Shown: positions 23,246-31,366 of the stretch, in pieces
Numbering within the stretch: the stretch's first letter is position 1
Layout of the letters: each line of letters begins with the position of its first letter
NCBI RefSeq assembly: GCF_900167955.1
Contig: NZ_FUYK01000011.1
Span: 35,495-75,196 of the forward strand
Length of the DNA: 39,702 bases
Direction of reading: 5' to 3'
DNA from: Candidatus Nitrosotalea bavarica
GTDB lineage: Archaea > Thermoproteota > Nitrososphaeria > Nitrososphaerales > Nitrosopumilaceae
The notes under the pieces: model-generated
Told to the model about the DNA's origin: nothing
The model's database searches: none
What the model saw: the letters and a program-made list of their open reading frames with translations, nothing else
Program-made: the position numbers and the translations under genes

Positions 23246-23713
23246 TTAAGGATGCATTATACTACTCATGTTGCCCATGCCACCCATTGAACCTTGATTT
23301 GACTTACTATTCATCCCTCCCATTCCGCTCATATTGCTCATACCACCCATGCCATGCATCATACCACCCATCATTCCATGACCCATCATGTTCTGCATTG
23401 ATTGCATAGATTGTGGATTGTTCATCATAGTATTACACCACGATTGCATAGCTTGTGGATGATCAGTCAAATACTGTGACATTTCTTCTCTGTATTTAGT
23501 ACTATCAAACATACTGGAATACATTTGCTGTCGAAATTCAGAATCTTGCATCATGTATCCATCATATTTTCCATAATGATGCCATCCGTCATACTGACCG
23601 AAATGACCATGCATCCGGTATGAATCATGATGACTAGAAACCGCATAGCCGATCTCAATTCCTCCAACTATGCCGACAATTACTATTGCTATCCAAACGT
23701 ATTGATTATTCAT
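23246..23713 (-). CDS. Membrane-anchored Met/His-rich metal-binding protein
   Basis: 155 residues. An N-terminal helix (5-26) anchors an exposed domain with a His-rich stretch (SSHHDSYRMHGHFGQYDGWHH) and about 25 Met in the last 100 residues, in MxxM and MMGGMM patterns typical of Cu(I) thioether binding. It also has a DHPQAMQSW-type helical segment. It likely buffers or sequesters copper outside the membrane. A TATA-like ATATAATATATAG at about 23735-23746 suggests leaderless transcription; the island operator is not at the standard distance (S5 lies 55 bp upstream, oriented the other way). Confidence 0.8.
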   Translation of the reverse strand: MNNQYVWIAIVIVGIVGGIEIGYAVSSHHDSYRMHGHFGQYDGWHHYGKYDGYMMQDSEFRQQMYSSMFDSTKYREEMSQYLTDHPQAMQSWCNTMMNNPQSMQSMQNMMGHGMMGGMMHGMGGMSNMSGMGGMNSKSNQGSMGGMGNMSSIMHP

Positions 23714-25425: not shown

Positions 25426-28416
25426 ATGAGATTTAAAAATAACGCATTATCAAAGCCGTCGAACAAAATAATTTTGTCAGTATTTGTTTCACTATTTGTT
25501 TTAGCAATAATTTCCGACATTCCCAAATCATATGAACATGCCTTTGTCATAGACAGTAGTCCTGCACCAGCGTCATCAGTAAACACGGCTCCATCACAGG
25601 TTGAGATAGAGTTTGTTGATCCCATTGACATGCGTTATAGTCAGATTAAAGTCATGGATGCAAATGGTAAAGCCATACAAAATAATGACTGGCATTTTAC
25701 AAATAACGAACATACAAAAACTGCTGTTTCCCTTCCACCAGATACTCCAAATGGGATTTATACGGTGTATACCAAAGTACTTGATGCAACAGACGGCCAT
25801 ACAACTACAAATGCTTTTGTTTTTGCCATAGGACAACCAATACCACAAAATCTTTTGAATGCAAAAACAAACATTAGTTTTGCAGATATTGTATCCATTC
25901 CCGATGCCATTGCAAGATATCCATCACTAGTAGGACAAATTATTGTTGTAGGAGCAGTCTTCTCATCATTCTGGCTATGGAGACCAGTTTCTAGAATTCC
26001 TGCACTAAATGATGCATCAAGACTAATGCGTTTCAAGATCGATAAGAGCACAACCAAGATTGTATTGATTGGCTCCATAATTATTTTGGCAGGAGATTTG
26101 GCAATGATTGCATCAGAAGCATTGTCAATAAATTCTGGCATACTAGAAGCAATGGGCACAACATTTGGAAATTTGTGGATTGTCAGGATGGTATTATCAT
26201 TAGTACTATTTGGTGTTGCTTTATTTTCCTATCTTAAACAAAAAAAATCAAATATAATTTTATCAAAAAGCCAAATCATCATACTATTTGCATTAGGTAT
26301 TGCAGTACTTACCACTACTACTTTGATAAGTCATGGTGCAGCAAGCGGCAAATTGCTGCCTCCAATACTTGATTTCGTACACAATGTCGTAGCATCATTA
26401 TGGATTGGAAGTATAATTTACTTGGCATTTGTTGCAGTTCCACAATTAAGACAATTACAAGATGAAAAAAGTAGCATGGCTATTTTGTCATTGATAATAC
26501 CACAATTTTCCACCATAGTTGTTGCGCTTCTTGGATTAGTAGTGATCACGGGGCCATTTCTCCTCTATGTACTTGAGAATAATCTTTCACTAACGCTTGT
26601 ATCAATATACGGTGAAATTCTCATCATCAAGCTTTCATTAGCTGGAGCAATGATTGGAATAGGCGCTTTTAATCAAAACGTCATTCATAGAAACGCACTC
26701 AAAACAATTGCCTTGTCATATATTCCAAGGAGTTCTACAACAACTCAACATAGCGAAACTAACAAGAATAATACAGGAAGATCAATTCTTGCAAAGTTTG
26801 ACAAAAGCATAAAAATCGAGGCAATAATAGGGTTAGTTCTAATTGCCTCAATTGCAGTATTGGCAGATTCCGGACTTCCAGCCATTCAATTTCAAGATGA
26901 ATTAGTACAACAGCAGCAACAAATTCCGCATGTTTTTGCATTTACTTCACTCGAGAGTTTAGTTCAAAACAAATTTACTGAAACAAGTTTTACAAATAAT
27001 GGAAACATAATACTAACAGCAGATCCATTCTTTGCCGGAAAAAATAATATCACCATATCTTTTGTAGATTCAAAAAATAATCCAATAGACATAAACTCAA
27101 CAAAAATAACACTTAACCAAGTAGACAAAGGAATTGGTCCAATTGCAGTTAATGATGCCGTGAAGATATCACAAGGAGTATTTTCTGTAAATACTGCCGC
27201 ACTGGCAATACCTGGTCACTGGGAAGCACAGGTAGAAGGTATAACAACAACATATGGAGCACTCAATGTTGTTACAAATTTTAATGATCTATATGTAAAG
27301 CCAAATTTGAATCAGTTACAAGCCAACATAACAGAATTCAAAATACCAGACAGTAAGGCTTTGCCACTATATCCAATTTATGACATCATCCGAAATGTAA
27401 TTTGGGTTGGAGACTCTGAAATTAATAGTGGAAGAATATGGGAGTTTGATCTAAACTCTAAACAATATACAGAGCATAAAATTAATGGAACAAACATAAT
27501 TACTGGCACGGCAATGGACTTTCAAAATAACATATGGTATATCGATCCTATAACAAAAATTATAGGTCAATACATGCCAGATGTTGGAAAAGATCAAAAA
27601 TATCACATTCCAAACAATGGTACTGTATCAGGCATTGTTGTAGATAATTCAAACAATATCTGGTTAACTGTATCAAGTACTAGTGAGGTTTTGAAATTAG
27701 ATGCAAAAACAAAAACATTCCAATCAATCAAGTTACCAGATAATTCCGTGCCACTTGGCATCTCCATTGACCAGTCAACAGGCCAAGTATGGGTAGCAGA
27801 GAGTGGCTCAGGAAAGATTGCAAATATAGATCCTGCCCAAAACTACAAGATCACAGAATACAGTCCGTTCAACAGTACGCTTGCAAGTCCCACTACTGTA
27901 TTATTTGATTCTGTGACTGACCAGGTCTTTGTTTCAGAACATGACGGCAAGGCAGTATCAGCTTTTGATCCGTTACTCAAGACTTTCAAAAAATATAACA
28001 CAGATCCACAAGGTTTACCGTTTGGCATGGTCTTTGATCAAAATCACGATCTTTGGTTGACACAACATACTCTAAACAAAATAACAGTCATAGATCCAAG
28101 AACTAGCAAGAATGTTGAATTTAACATACCATCCCCATCATCATTTACTCAATGGATAACAGTCGATTCTCAAGGAGACCTAATAATAGCAGAGCAACGT
28201 GCAAATGCACTTGGGATAATCACCACTAGTCTAAAGCCAGGATTTGTTGAAAACACTGAAACAAGTGTCACGCTAGGTTTACCATTAGGAGTAGGATATG
28301 CAGATGTGTCAGGTCCTTCAATAGCAGCAGGATTAGTAGCTGTTGCCTTTTTCTATTCAAAAAGTGTAATAGATCTTAGGAGTAGCATAAAACAAGTAAA
28401 GAAAAGCTACAACTAA
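25426..28416 (+). CDS. CopC-CopD-beta-propeller fusion, copper transport/sensing
   Basis: 996 residues in three parts. CopC (about 38-136): N-terminal HAFVIDSSPAPAS with His38, and the DGH motif Asp123/His125, spaced as the Cu(II) site of CopC. CopD (about 165-485): eight or so membrane helices with SHGAAS (His303) and DFVHNVVASLWIGSI (His319). A 110-residue linker domain leads to a Vgb-like propeller (about 620-935; NNIWLTVSSTSEVLKLDAKT, VWVAESGSGKIANIDP) and a final helix (about 950-972). CopC-CopD takes copper across the membrane; the propeller is an unusual addition. It shares the island operator with its divergent neighbours. Confidence 0.88.
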   Translation: MRFKNNALSKPSNKIILSVFVSLFVLAIISDIPKSYEHAFVIDSSPAPASSVNTAPSQVEIEFVDPIDMRYSQIKVMDANGKAIQNNDWHFTNNEHTKTAVSLPPDTPNGIYTVYTKVLDATDGHTTTNAFVFAIGQPIPQNLLNAKTNISFADIVSIPDAIARYPSLVGQIIVVGAVFSSFWLWRPVSRIPALNDASRLMRFKIDKSTTKIVLIGSIIILAGDLAMIASEALSINSGILEAMGTTFGNLWIVRMVLSLVLFGVALFSYLKQKKSNIILSKSQIIILFALGIAVLTTTTLISHGAASGKLLPPILDFVHNVVASLWIGSIIYLAFVAVPQLRQLQDEKSSMAILSLIIPQFSTIVVALLGLVVITGPFLLYVLENNLSLTLVSIYGEILIIKLSLAGAMIGIGAFNQNVIHRNALKTIALSYIPRSSTTTQHSETNKNNTGRSILAKFDKSIKIEAIIGLVLIASIAVLADSGLPAIQFQDELVQQQQQIPHVFAFTSLESLVQNKFTETSFTNNGNIILTADPFFAGKNNITISFVDSKNNPIDINSTKITLNQVDKGIGPIAVNDAVKISQGVFSVNTAALAIPGHWEAQVEGITTTYGALNVVTNFNDLYVKPNLNQLQANITEFKIPDSKALPLYPIYDIIRNVIWVGDSEINSGRIWEFDLNSKQYTEHKINGTNIITGTAMDFQNNIWYIDPITKIIGQYMPDVGKDQKYHIPNNGTVSGIVVDNSNNIWLTVSSTSEVLKLDAKTKTFQSIKLPDNSVPLGISIDQSTGQVWVAESGSGKIANIDPAQNYKITEYSPFNSTLASPTTVLFDSVTDQVFVSEHDGKAVSAFDPLLKTFKKYNTDPQGLPFGMVFDQNHDLWLTQHTLNKITVIDPRTSKNVEFNIPSPSSFTQWITVDSQGDLIIAEQRANALGIITTSLKPGFVENTETSVTLGLPLGVGYADVSGPSIAAGLVAVAFFYSKSVIDLRSSIKQVKKSYN

Positions 28417-28517: not shown

Positions 28518-29483
28518 CTAGCGTATCTTTGGCAGAGCCTTGGTAATAATAATTACAGAAATAAATGAAAGCATTACAAGCAAGATAGGCATTGGAAACT
28601 CTGGCACTACTTGAATATTCAATCCAGATATAAAATTAGGATGTATATACATATGCACTATCATCATAACATTGTTTCCAGATTCTTTTGCGCCAATAGC
28701 TTGCTGCAAATTACCTAATGCGGTTCCAATCTTATCAAGATAGGAAGATGTGCTTGATGGAGCCATTGAGTTCAAATCTTGAAACATGGATTGAGCTGTG
28801 GTTGTGAGTTCTTGAGCACTTTGGTATGCTGCCTCATCAACAATAATACTTGACATTCCAGACATACCACTCATGCTTCCAGACTGCATCCCAGACATAC
28901 CTTTCATTCCTGACATACTACCAGAACTCACAGATGATGAATTATTCATGCTCATACTACTCATGTTCATATTTGCCATATTAGTGAGATCAACATTTGA
29001 GCCAATAGCATCACCATAATCTACTAGTACTTGATTTAAGACATTAATTATTGCAAGAGATTTTACAGTTGCGTTATTTTGTATAGAAGCTGAAATTTCT
29101 GTAGATTCAACCTGATCCAAAAGTTGATTCAGTGCATAAGATTTTTGTGATGCAATAGTCGGATCTACATTAGTGCTACCAGATAAAGAATACAAGTCAT
29201 TAATTGCTGTTGACAGACTATTAGCCAAAGTTGCGTTTTGTTGAGTAAGTGTATTCATATCATTCAACCCCCAATATTCTTGACTTTTTGCAATATGCCA
29301 GTGAGACATCTTACTGTCAGAAATATTATTTGCAATAAGCTTTGATTCTACCTTGAATTCTTGTATTTTTGCAATAAGATCTGCATCAGAATTTTTTACA
29401 AAGGAATGAGCAAATACTGGATGAACGAATAGCACGCCCACAAGTGCAATTACCATTAATGATGCAACTATTTTCTTTGTCAA
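28518..29483 (-). CDS. Exported Met-rich protein with PEF sorting tail
   Basis: 321 residues from TTG 29483. The signal peptide ends HPVFA, leaving His26 as the mature N-terminus (HSFV). A helical region follows, then a Met cluster (about 170-215: MANMNMSSMSMNN, MSGMKGMSGMQ, MSGMSGM), another helix, and VPEFPMPILLVMLSFISVII with a basic end, a PEF-type sorting tail. The MxGM clusters suggest Cu(I) binding. The promoter has the island half-site at 29521 and an ATTTTAAT TATA, 30 bp before the start. Confidence 0.8.
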   Translation of the reverse strand: MTKKIVASLMVIALVGVLFVHPVFAHSFVKNSDADLIAKIQEFKVESKLIANNISDSKMSHWHIAKSQEYWGLNDMNTLTQQNATLANSLSTAINDLYSLSGSTNVDPTIASQKSYALNQLLDQVESTEISASIQNNATVKSLAIINVLNQVLVDYGDAIGSNVDLTNMANMNMSSMSMNNSSSVSSGSMSGMKGMSGMQSGSMSGMSGMSSIIVDEAAYQSAQELTTTAQSMFQDLNSMAPSSTSSYLDKIGTALGNLQQAIGAKESGNNVMMIVHMYIHPNFISGLNIQVVPEFPMPILLVMLSFISVIIITKALPKIR

Positions 29484-29527: not shown

Positions 29528-29655
29528 ATCTTCGAATATTATTAATTTCGGCACAAGATTTCAACAACCATTGGCATCGACTACAAATGATAACTGGACA
29601 GGTAATCGAGAAATGTCTATGTAAAATAAGAAAAAATTAGTCAAATGATTAAATA

Positions 29656-29677: not shown

Positions 29678-29785
29678 ATGAAATGCGGTTGTGGCGGAGA
29701 CAAATGCATATCTCCAGATTGTAATTGTGAAACAACAGGAAAATGTACTTGTGGACCCTCGTGTCAGTGTAATGCTAAAAAGTAA
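29678..29785 (+). CDS. Metallothionein-like Cys-rich protein
   Basis: A 35-residue protein with nine Cys (3, 5, 10, 15, 17, 23, 25, 29, 31), four C-x-C pairs, no aromatic residues, and Lys/Gly/Asp between: MKCGCGGDKC, CNCETTGKCTCG, CQCNAKK. This composition and spacing are those of short metallothioneins, which bind d10 ions such as Cu(I) and Zn(II) as thiolate clusters in the cytosol. It lies between a Met-rich exported protein and a His-rich membrane protein in the metal island, which supports a copper or zinc buffering role. Too short for most gene callers. Confidence 0.8.
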   Translation: MKCGCGGDKCISPDCNCETTGKCTCGPSCQCNAKK

Positions 29786-29853: not shown

Positions 29854-30390
29854 ATGGTTAAAGAAAAAGTGTCTGTGAAGAAAGAGTCTTTCAAACTATC
29901 GAAAAAAATTGTAATTATCGCAGTATTGATTTTAGTTGTAGGCATATCAGCAACATACATGAAATTCAGATTACATGCACTCCCAGATATTGATGGAATA
30001 GAGTGTAATCAAATGGAACAGGCAGTCTTTCACATACATGCCCATCTGGATGTGTATGTAGATGGACAACATCGAACGGTGCCTGAATTTATAGGAATTA
30101 TTCCAAATACATGCTTTTACTGGTTGCATACCCATGATCCTACTGGCATAATTCACATCGAGGCACCACAATACAAGACATTCACTCTCGGACAGTTCCT
30201 TGATGTATGGTCTAAATCATTTGAAAACTCTGGGATTCCCACTGGAACACCAAAGTCATATGTAAATGGTAAAGAATTCACAGGAGATTTTAGGGAAATT
30301 CAGCTTAACGCCCATGATGAGATCGTACTGGTGTATGGTTTACCGCCAGATTCAATTCCAATCTCCTTTGATTTTCCCCAAAACTTGTAG
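29854..30390 (+). CDS. Membrane-anchored His-rich extracytoplasmic protein
   Basis: 178 residues. One helix (about 18-35) anchors a domain with FHIHAHLDVYVDG (His60, 62, 64) and FYWLHTHDPTGIIHIEAP (His92, 94, 101), followed by FTLGQFLDVWSKSF. I recognise this HIHAHL...LHTHD..G.IHIE pattern from uncharacterised exported proteins of bacteria and archaea. The six His could form a Cu or Zn site. A TATA-like ATAATTTATG at about 29820-29829 precedes it. Function is unproven. Confidence 0.75.
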   Translation: MVKEKVSVKKESFKLSKKIVIIAVLILVVGISATYMKFRLHALPDIDGIECNQMEQAVFHIHAHLDVYVDGQHRTVPEFIGIIPNTCFYWLHTHDPTGIIHIEAPQYKTFTLGQFLDVWSKSFENSGIPTGTPKSYVNGKEFTGDFREIQLNAHDEIVLVYGLPPDSIPISFDFPQNL

Positions 30391-30526: not shown

Positions 30527-31330
30527 TTATCCCATACCATTCAGATATCCCTCTAGAACAGAAAATGTTGAAGTATTTCTGTCTGTAAAGGTTACCGAAT
30601 TTTTACCGTCGTTCATCATCACAAAATCTGATGCTCCATCGGGGTTGTTGGTTGTATTACCAATGTCAAAGTGGTATGCACATATTCCACGTCCAGGATC
30701 TGAGATATGCTGGAGGTATTGAATATTAGCCGGCTCTAGAGTATTAACACCGCCATCAAGTATTCCCTCATAGACTCTAACTCTTGGTTGTCCAAGATCA
30801 TCACATGGTAAGATTGTTGCCATGTGTCCCTTCGTAGTCATGAATGGAGTGGTGTCAGCCAAGTCAAGATATTCACCTGGATGTAGTGTCAATCCGCCTA
30901 GTTTGAACCACTCTTCAGTTGGAAGATTTGGTGGGCCTGTAGCGTCAACTTTCCACGAAGTGCTAAACATTTCACAGTGACCTGCTGTCGCGATTCCATT
31001 TGTAATGGTACAGGCATTTTGAATCGAATAGCTTGTAGTGTCAACAATGCATTGTCCATTAGCTGTTGATGGATCACCTGTGAATCCTGTTGGTATAGTG
31101 TAAGTTTTCACCATACTCGTACCAAAGACTGAAGGAGTCACCTGAGTACAGATAGGCAAGGTCGGGTGTGTGACTTGACTTGCTGCTTGAGCTTGCATCG
31201 TGTTTTGCATGTCTTGCATAGAACCCATTCCTGACATGTCCATTGCAGACACATTAGGAATAATGACAATTGCAGCTAAGGCCAATAGGCCAAATAGTGC
31301 CCCTAAGGAGATTGTCTTGTTTTTCGTCAT
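30527..31330 (-). CDS. Exported Met-rich N-terminus, Cys-containing protein, unknown
   Basis: 267 residues from ATG 31330 (TTG 31339 is upstream). The signal peptide (LGALFGLLALAAIVIIPNVSA) leaves a mature start MDMSGMGSMQDMQNTMQ, a Cu(I)-type Met string. The remaining 200 residues are beta-rich with Cys at PICTQ, GQCIV, NACTI, GHCEM, LPCDD and GICAY, which may form disulphides, and EWFKLGGLTLHPGEYLDL. No family recognised. It carries one of the best island operators (31367-31389), with TATTAAAT 4-5 bp beyond and the ATG 28 bp further on. Confidence 0.78.
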   Translation of the reverse strand: MTKNKTISLGALFGLLALAAIVIIPNVSAMDMSGMGSMQDMQNTMQAQAASQVTHPTLPICTQVTPSVFGTSMVKTYTIPTGFTGDPSTANGQCIVDTTSYSIQNACTITNGIATAGHCEMFSTSWKVDATGPPNLPTEEWFKLGGLTLHPGEYLDLADTTPFMTTKGHMATILPCDDLGQPRVRVYEGILDGGVNTLEPANIQYLQHISDPGRGICAYHFDIGNTTNNPDGASDFVMMNDGKNSVTFTDRNTSTFSVLEGYLNGMG

Positions 31331-31366
31331 TACGTACAAAGTATAAAATTTTCAATTTAATAGATC

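Follow-up and report, generated by a model that had tools for sequence, protein, structure and literature searches.

A small metallothionein-like gene of Candidatus Nitrosotalea bavarica and its relatives across the Nitrosopumilaceae

Positions 29678-29785 of the window, by which we mean the whole 39,702-nucleotide stretch of Candidatus Nitrosotalea bavarica DNA analysed here, are a real gene under purifying selection. Its product is probably a cytosolic metallothionein (MT)-like peptide that holds a metal cluster, most likely of Cu(I), and buffers or sequesters copper. The gene belongs to a family with three forms, which we call types A (the window gene), B and C. More tentatively, we propose that this undescribed MT-like domain is a near-universal core component of the Nitrosopumilaceae, occurring in an accessory form at copper loci, in a stand-alone form and in a membrane-tethered form, and that it may be a cytosolic Cu(I) store replacing the Csp proteins of the sister soil lineage.

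The gene and its conservation

The reading frame translates to a 35-aa peptide, MKCGCGGDKCISPDCNCETTGKCTCGPSCQCNAKK, followed by a stop codon. The peptide contains nine cysteines (26%), with CxC pairs at C3/C5, C15/C17, C23/C25 and C29/C31, and neither His nor any of the aromatic residues F, W and Y. The original prediction, made from the sequence alone, had named the 35 residues, the nine Cys, the four CxC pairs and the lack of aromatics, all of which are exact on translation of 29678-29785. It had also held the gene to be too short for the usual gene callers, which is wrong as to length, as 108 nt exceeds the usual 90-nt floor of such programs, but right in so far as curated family models gave no matches (in NCBIfam, none of the curated models matched the window peptide). 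The gene and its elements are as follows:

29678..29785, forward strand: gene for the type-A metallothionein-like peptide (35 aa, 9 Cys); its transcript is probably leaderless (translation, homologues, alignment, dN/dS)
29720..29770, forward strand: codons of the core C-x-C-x5-C-x-C-x3-C-x-C, residues 15-31 (invariant in alignment A1)
29649..29655, forward strand: TTAAATA, an element resembling a TATA box, 22 nt ahead of the ATG (kept in most distinct type-A genes)

In most of the distinct type-A genes the TTAAATA box stands 21-22 nt ahead of the start codon, which bears out the earlier remark that the TATA box is well placed. Because this spacing is the one expected for a leaderless archaeal transcript, we take 29678 as the start. 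A 46-aa reading from the in-frame ATG at 29645 was rejected: in relatives (L068, L071-L073) the upstream start is lost or the frame broken, the codons upstream of the inner ATG being out of frame in L073, and since this decay occurs while the TTAAATA DNA in the same place stays conserved, the longer reading is unlikely.

Type-A homologues in related genomes show 97-54% identity, and identity to MKCGCGGDKCISPDCNCETTGKCTCGPSCQCNAKK is 97% in L003/L068 and 83-69% in N. devanaterra-type genomes. For pairs of type-A homologues the dN/dS ratio was 0.03-0.2 (pairwise Nei-Gojobori), a range limited to pairs with unsaturated synonymous sites, values of 0.000 being saturation artefacts. Conservation at the protein level in relatives had been set as the check on the original prediction, and the gene passed it, with homologues under purifying selection. 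The gene is short and Cys codons may cluster randomly: nine Cys in 31 residues were reached in 1 of 150 simulated windows (order-1 Markov, same composition), and the CxC-x5-CxC-x3-CxC core, which occurs once in the real window, was found in none of the 150. As composition is therefore insufficient as proof, the strongest evidence against a chance open reading frame is conservation, and the homologues, the purifying selection and the conserved promoter and start refute that explanation, to which we give next to no credence. A viral origin was also considered and rejected, viral contigs having contained no relatives.

AlphaFold modelled MKCGCGGDKCISPDCNCETTGKCTCGPSCQCNAKK with low confidence (pLDDT 68, pTM 0.27); lack of a confident fold is expected for a peptide that is folded by metal, and the model counts neither for nor against the metallothionein-like reading.

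Copper gene neighbourhood and predicted metal

The CxC-x5-CxC-x3-CxC core is invariant in alignment A1, and each of the 48 distinct peptides gathered has it. Together these peptides contain 191 CxC, no CxxC and no CC; because the core motif was the criterion of collection, the CxC counts are partly built in, but this does not apply to the missing CxxC and CC. Cysteines that occur only as CxC would suit bridging thiolate clusters like those of metallothioneins rather than the arrangements of a zinc ribbon, an Fe-S site or CopZ. Small Cys-rich proteins of zinc-ribbon-like, Fe-S or regulatory kind are common in archaea, and the peptide might be a micro-protein of this sort that merely resembles a metallothionein. 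We consider this highly improbable, because CxxC motifs, on which zinc ribbons, rubredoxins and ferredoxins are built, are missing from all 48 peptides, and because no Pfam match was obtained.

The metal island that had been described around the gene is real, and comprises a CopC-CopD fusion, a multicopper oxidase, NicO, a ferritin/Dps-like gene and Met-rich secreted proteins. The following neighbours are referred to below:

25426..28416, forward strand: CopC-CopD fusion with C-terminal Vgb-like propeller (Pfam, NCBIfam, synteny)
28518..29483, reverse strand: Met-rich (MSGM repeats) secreted protein, divergent neighbour (sequence)
29854..30390, forward strand: 178-aa protein with N-terminal hydrophobic segment, downstream neighbour (sequence, synteny)

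Proteins matching the window CopC-CopD fusion with its long Vgb-like beta-propeller were found in 33 of the 37 genomes of the genus. The product of 28518-29483 gave no Pfam or NCBIfam match, a homologue adjoins CopC-CopD in L068, L074 and L075, and by composition only it is a probable extracytoplasmic copper protein. Met-rich secreted proteins with MSGM/MMGGM repeats or MDMSGM motifs, all without a Pfam match, are encoded at 23246-23713, 28518-29483 and 30527-31339 of the window, and the first and last of these are possibly extracytoplasmic copper proteins as well. The gene at 29854-30390 is kept in the nearest relative, with an insertion between.

One gene separates the MT gene from CopC-CopD in the window and in the closest relative, and in G007 and G017 the MT gene follows a CopC-CopD homologue on the same strand at a distance of ~80 bp. 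Type A stands between a DsbD-like gene and copA in three genomes of the Nitrosopumilus group (L063, L095, L097). Type C, the third form, which begins MANCGCGAQHKSHCKCETTGKCDCGSNCTCVDC, was found in two copies in G035, each ~30 bp upstream of a P1B-1-type Cu(I)-ATPase gene on the same strand; the ATPases have CPC, YN and MxxSS motifs, and a gene resembling the DsbD-like one diverges at these loci. That the DsbD/MT/CopA grouping recurs with different MT forms and CopA subtypes points to function, not to descent of one locus. The N. devanaterra-type, G211 and G084 copies have neither CopA nor CopC-CopD adjoining. In three type-A loci (L070:8919-9254, L071:2967-3305, L073:4436-4774) a 111-aa protein with a Cys-rich N-terminus, MKCESGTCNTEEATCSCTSEMECNDCGCG, is encoded ~0.8 kb from type A, and its gene adjoins an HxlR-type regulator with a CC motif.

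The metallothionein-like reading of the original prediction is supported by purifying selection, by a Cys framework found in known metallothioneins and by copper-export neighbours. In the mechanism that we propose, the nine Cys (four CxC and one single) would enclose a small metal-thiolate cluster, with Cu(I) as the most likely metal. The peptide would buffer or sequester copper that enters the cytosol and, in hosts with a Cu(I) P-type ATPase, pass it on for export. We infer metal binding, the identity of the metal as Cu(I), the cytosolic location (a signal peptide is absent) and the buffering role.

An MT-like peptide might also bind mainly Zn(II)/Cd(II), or divalent metals broadly, with the copper neighbours being part of a general metal island. 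The mammalian MT beta-domain layout with nine Cys binds three divalent ions, and the nine Cys here, in a beta-domain-like layout, could likewise hold three; several Nitrosotalea copies have a His (CHC) that could favour Zn, and the island includes the NicO transporter and the ferritin/Dps-like gene. We nevertheless think this unlikely, if worth keeping in view, because the recurrent partners are of Cu(I) type (CopA with CPC/YN/MxxSS; CopC-CopD), the window member has no His and the catabolism of the hosts is copper-dependent (PMC7554672).

The positions of the MT gene, just ahead of copA and co-oriented with it for both type-C copies and beside copA and the DsbD-like gene elsewhere, would also suit a peptide dedicated to CopA, a Cu(I) chaperone or accessory factor that delivers to the pump and is not a multi-metal buffer. 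This appears quite improbable, as the single CxxC site of chaperones such as CopZ is absent, nine Cys exceed what a chaperone needs, and seven of the nine type-A carriers of the genus are without CopA above the cut-off, though the phylogenetic contrasts behind that count are too few to be decisive. A copper-buffering peptide is the reading that we prefer.

Across the genus, CopA above the cut-off was found in 2 of 9 type-A carriers versus 24 of 28 non-carriers (Fisher p 0.0009, a raw association), and the ~628-aa ATPases inspected in five type-A carriers have TPC, not CPC. It may be suggested, as a hypothesis only, that type A substitutes sequestration for CopA export; because the rpoB tree gives only 3-4 independent contrasts for type A versus CopA, we treat the substitution as a lead only.

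Distribution of the MT-like domain in the Nitrosopumilaceae

With its N-terminal CGC, its core and its small leaderless gene, the window peptide fits the MT-like family of the Nitrosopumilaceae. Type-A homologues occur in nine Ca. Nitrosotalea genomes (including N. devanaterra, LN890280.1) and five Nitrosopumilus-group genomes. On LN890280.1, type A is found near position 658,241 and type B near 383,616. A strict type-A profile matched 14 of 250 Nitrosopumilaceae genomes and, in the phylum sample, none outside that family, for which reason we regard type A as accessory. The broad profile, which is alignment A1 with 16 sequences, found a member in 230 of the 250 Nitrosopumilaceae (GTDB) genomes, representing 22 of 22 genera, and in 128 of the 131 near-complete Nitrosopumilaceae genomes. 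The MT-like domain was present in all 52 Nitrosopumilaceae genomes of the order sample versus none of the 149 from other families, and among the matches listed for the class sample none lies outside the Nitrosopumilaceae. Type B is the core branch of the family, in nearly every member of the Nitrosopumilaceae sensu lato, and type A is the accessory branch. The single gene of the original prediction is therefore real, but its extent had been underestimated, the domain being a core feature family-wide that is found both stand-alone and fused to a membrane protein. As a separate observation, G132 carries an extra divergent A-like gene (L097:5193-5366, MDSCGCDKRGCIDTSCDCLDSQVCMCGEHCNCN...) near type A and CopA, for a total of four MT-like domains.

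Type B is 44-49 aa long with Cys spacing 1-9/10-1-5-1-3-1-4, and its synteny is fixed at all loci inspected, between a ~295-aa protein of nucleotidyltransferase fold and a ~440-500-aa secreted protein; no recognisable copper genes were found among its neighbours. The ~295-aa upstream neighbour (L114:3656-4540 and homologues) has GGCR near its start and is confidently predicted to adopt a nucleotidyltransferase-like (ANT/MNT) fold (pLDDT 92, Foldseek E ~1e-4).

In many Nitrosopumilus-group genomes a membrane protein of ~460 aa ends in a type-B domain, which makes up its final ~48 residues. The family of this protein (L113:4888-6255, L111:4056-5450, L058:2961-4343) is present in all sampled Nitrosopumilaceae genomes and also occurs in some of the order's other families. 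In crown genomes of the Nitrosopumilus group its C-terminal tail is MT-like; in other genomes the tail is RGSMPKGWKP or is missing. Because the tail is absent from the Nitrosotalea homologues and is 57-68% identical to Nitrosotalea type B, the fusion is taken to be derived. Basic residues after the transmembrane segment that precedes the tail suggest that the tail is cytosolic.

Published accounts of metallothioneins in archaea differ: one review has them absent (PMC4187156), another has them present, details not given (PMC6215804), and they were reported as not found in Haloferax mediterranei (PMC9240420) and Thermococcus gammatolerans (PMC3407056). In the literature that we searched, with bioRxiv and most subscription journals outside the search, there was no description of an archaeal metallothionein. 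The energy metabolism of ammonia-oxidising archaea depends on copper enzymes, yet their cytosolic copper buffering is poorly known; for Nitrosotalea sinensis, a 2026 study suggested that the mechanisms of copper homeostasis may be insufficient (PMC13003922). The MT-like family would provide these copper-dependent organisms with a metal buffer of a kind described as missing from archaea, and concrete small genes can be named for it, some of them in strains available in culture, N. devanaterra (LN890280.1) for one.

Comparison with known metallothioneins and copper proteins

By the sequence criteria of composition and Cys framework the peptides are MT-like, yet they lie outside all catalogued MT families. 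MKCGCGGDKCISPDCNCETTGKCTCGPSCQCNAKK has the low mass, the Cys content of 15-35% and the few or no aromatics of metallothioneins, and of the clusters that characterise them (CxC, CC or CxxC in a conserved framework) it has CxC, in an invariant core. Types A, B and C gave no Pfam match above the curated cut-off (PF00131, PF02069, PF12749 and others), type C reaching an E of 0.93 with PF12749, under the cut-off.

A profile search of PDB sequences gave no significant homology to vertebrate or fungal MTs (best E ~0.1). The beta domain of vertebrate MT-1/MT-2 (1DFT, 2MRT) has the same CxC-x5-CxC-x3-CxC, ungapped, and nine Cys per domain, with DPNCSC aligning with SPDCNC; at E ~0.1, however, the archaeal peptide places its remaining Cys otherwise and is without an alpha domain. 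The resemblance is likely to be convergence. The Cu-MT of Neurospora crassa (1T2Y) shares CxC-x5-CxC-x3-CxC with the archaeal peptides, and in type C of G035 the final x2-C is there too, so that the seven-Cys Neurospora spacing is complete, with an extra CGC at the N-terminus. The archaeal peptides differ in being longer, with the added CGC and, in type A, also a single Cys, and the profile search gave no statistically significant homology to fungal MTs such as the Neurospora protein.

Bacterial MTs (SmtA/BmtA, PF02069; MymT) are likewise small, cytosolic and Cys-rich, with a metal-linked gene neighbourhood; there was no match to their Pfam family and a weak local similarity to Pseudomonas 6GRV (E 0.18). 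SmtA-type MTs have a zinc-finger-like fold with His, which is absent from the archaeal window peptide. Compared with the CopZ/HMA chaperone (GMxCxxC, ferredoxin-like fold, ~65 aa), the peptides have no CxxC and no HMA Pfam match.

Csp (DUF326, PF03860) of other ammonia-oxidising archaea, in the same order, is likewise a proposed thiol-based Cu(I) storage protein (PMC7554672), but Csp proteins are folded four-helix bundles, unlike the MT-like peptide. The ancestor of the Nitrososphaerales has been reconstructed as having Csp (PMC7554672), and the distribution found here is in keeping with that reconstruction. Within the order sample, Csp was found in 16 genomes of other families and in none of the Nitrosopumilaceae, where the MT-like domain is present instead.
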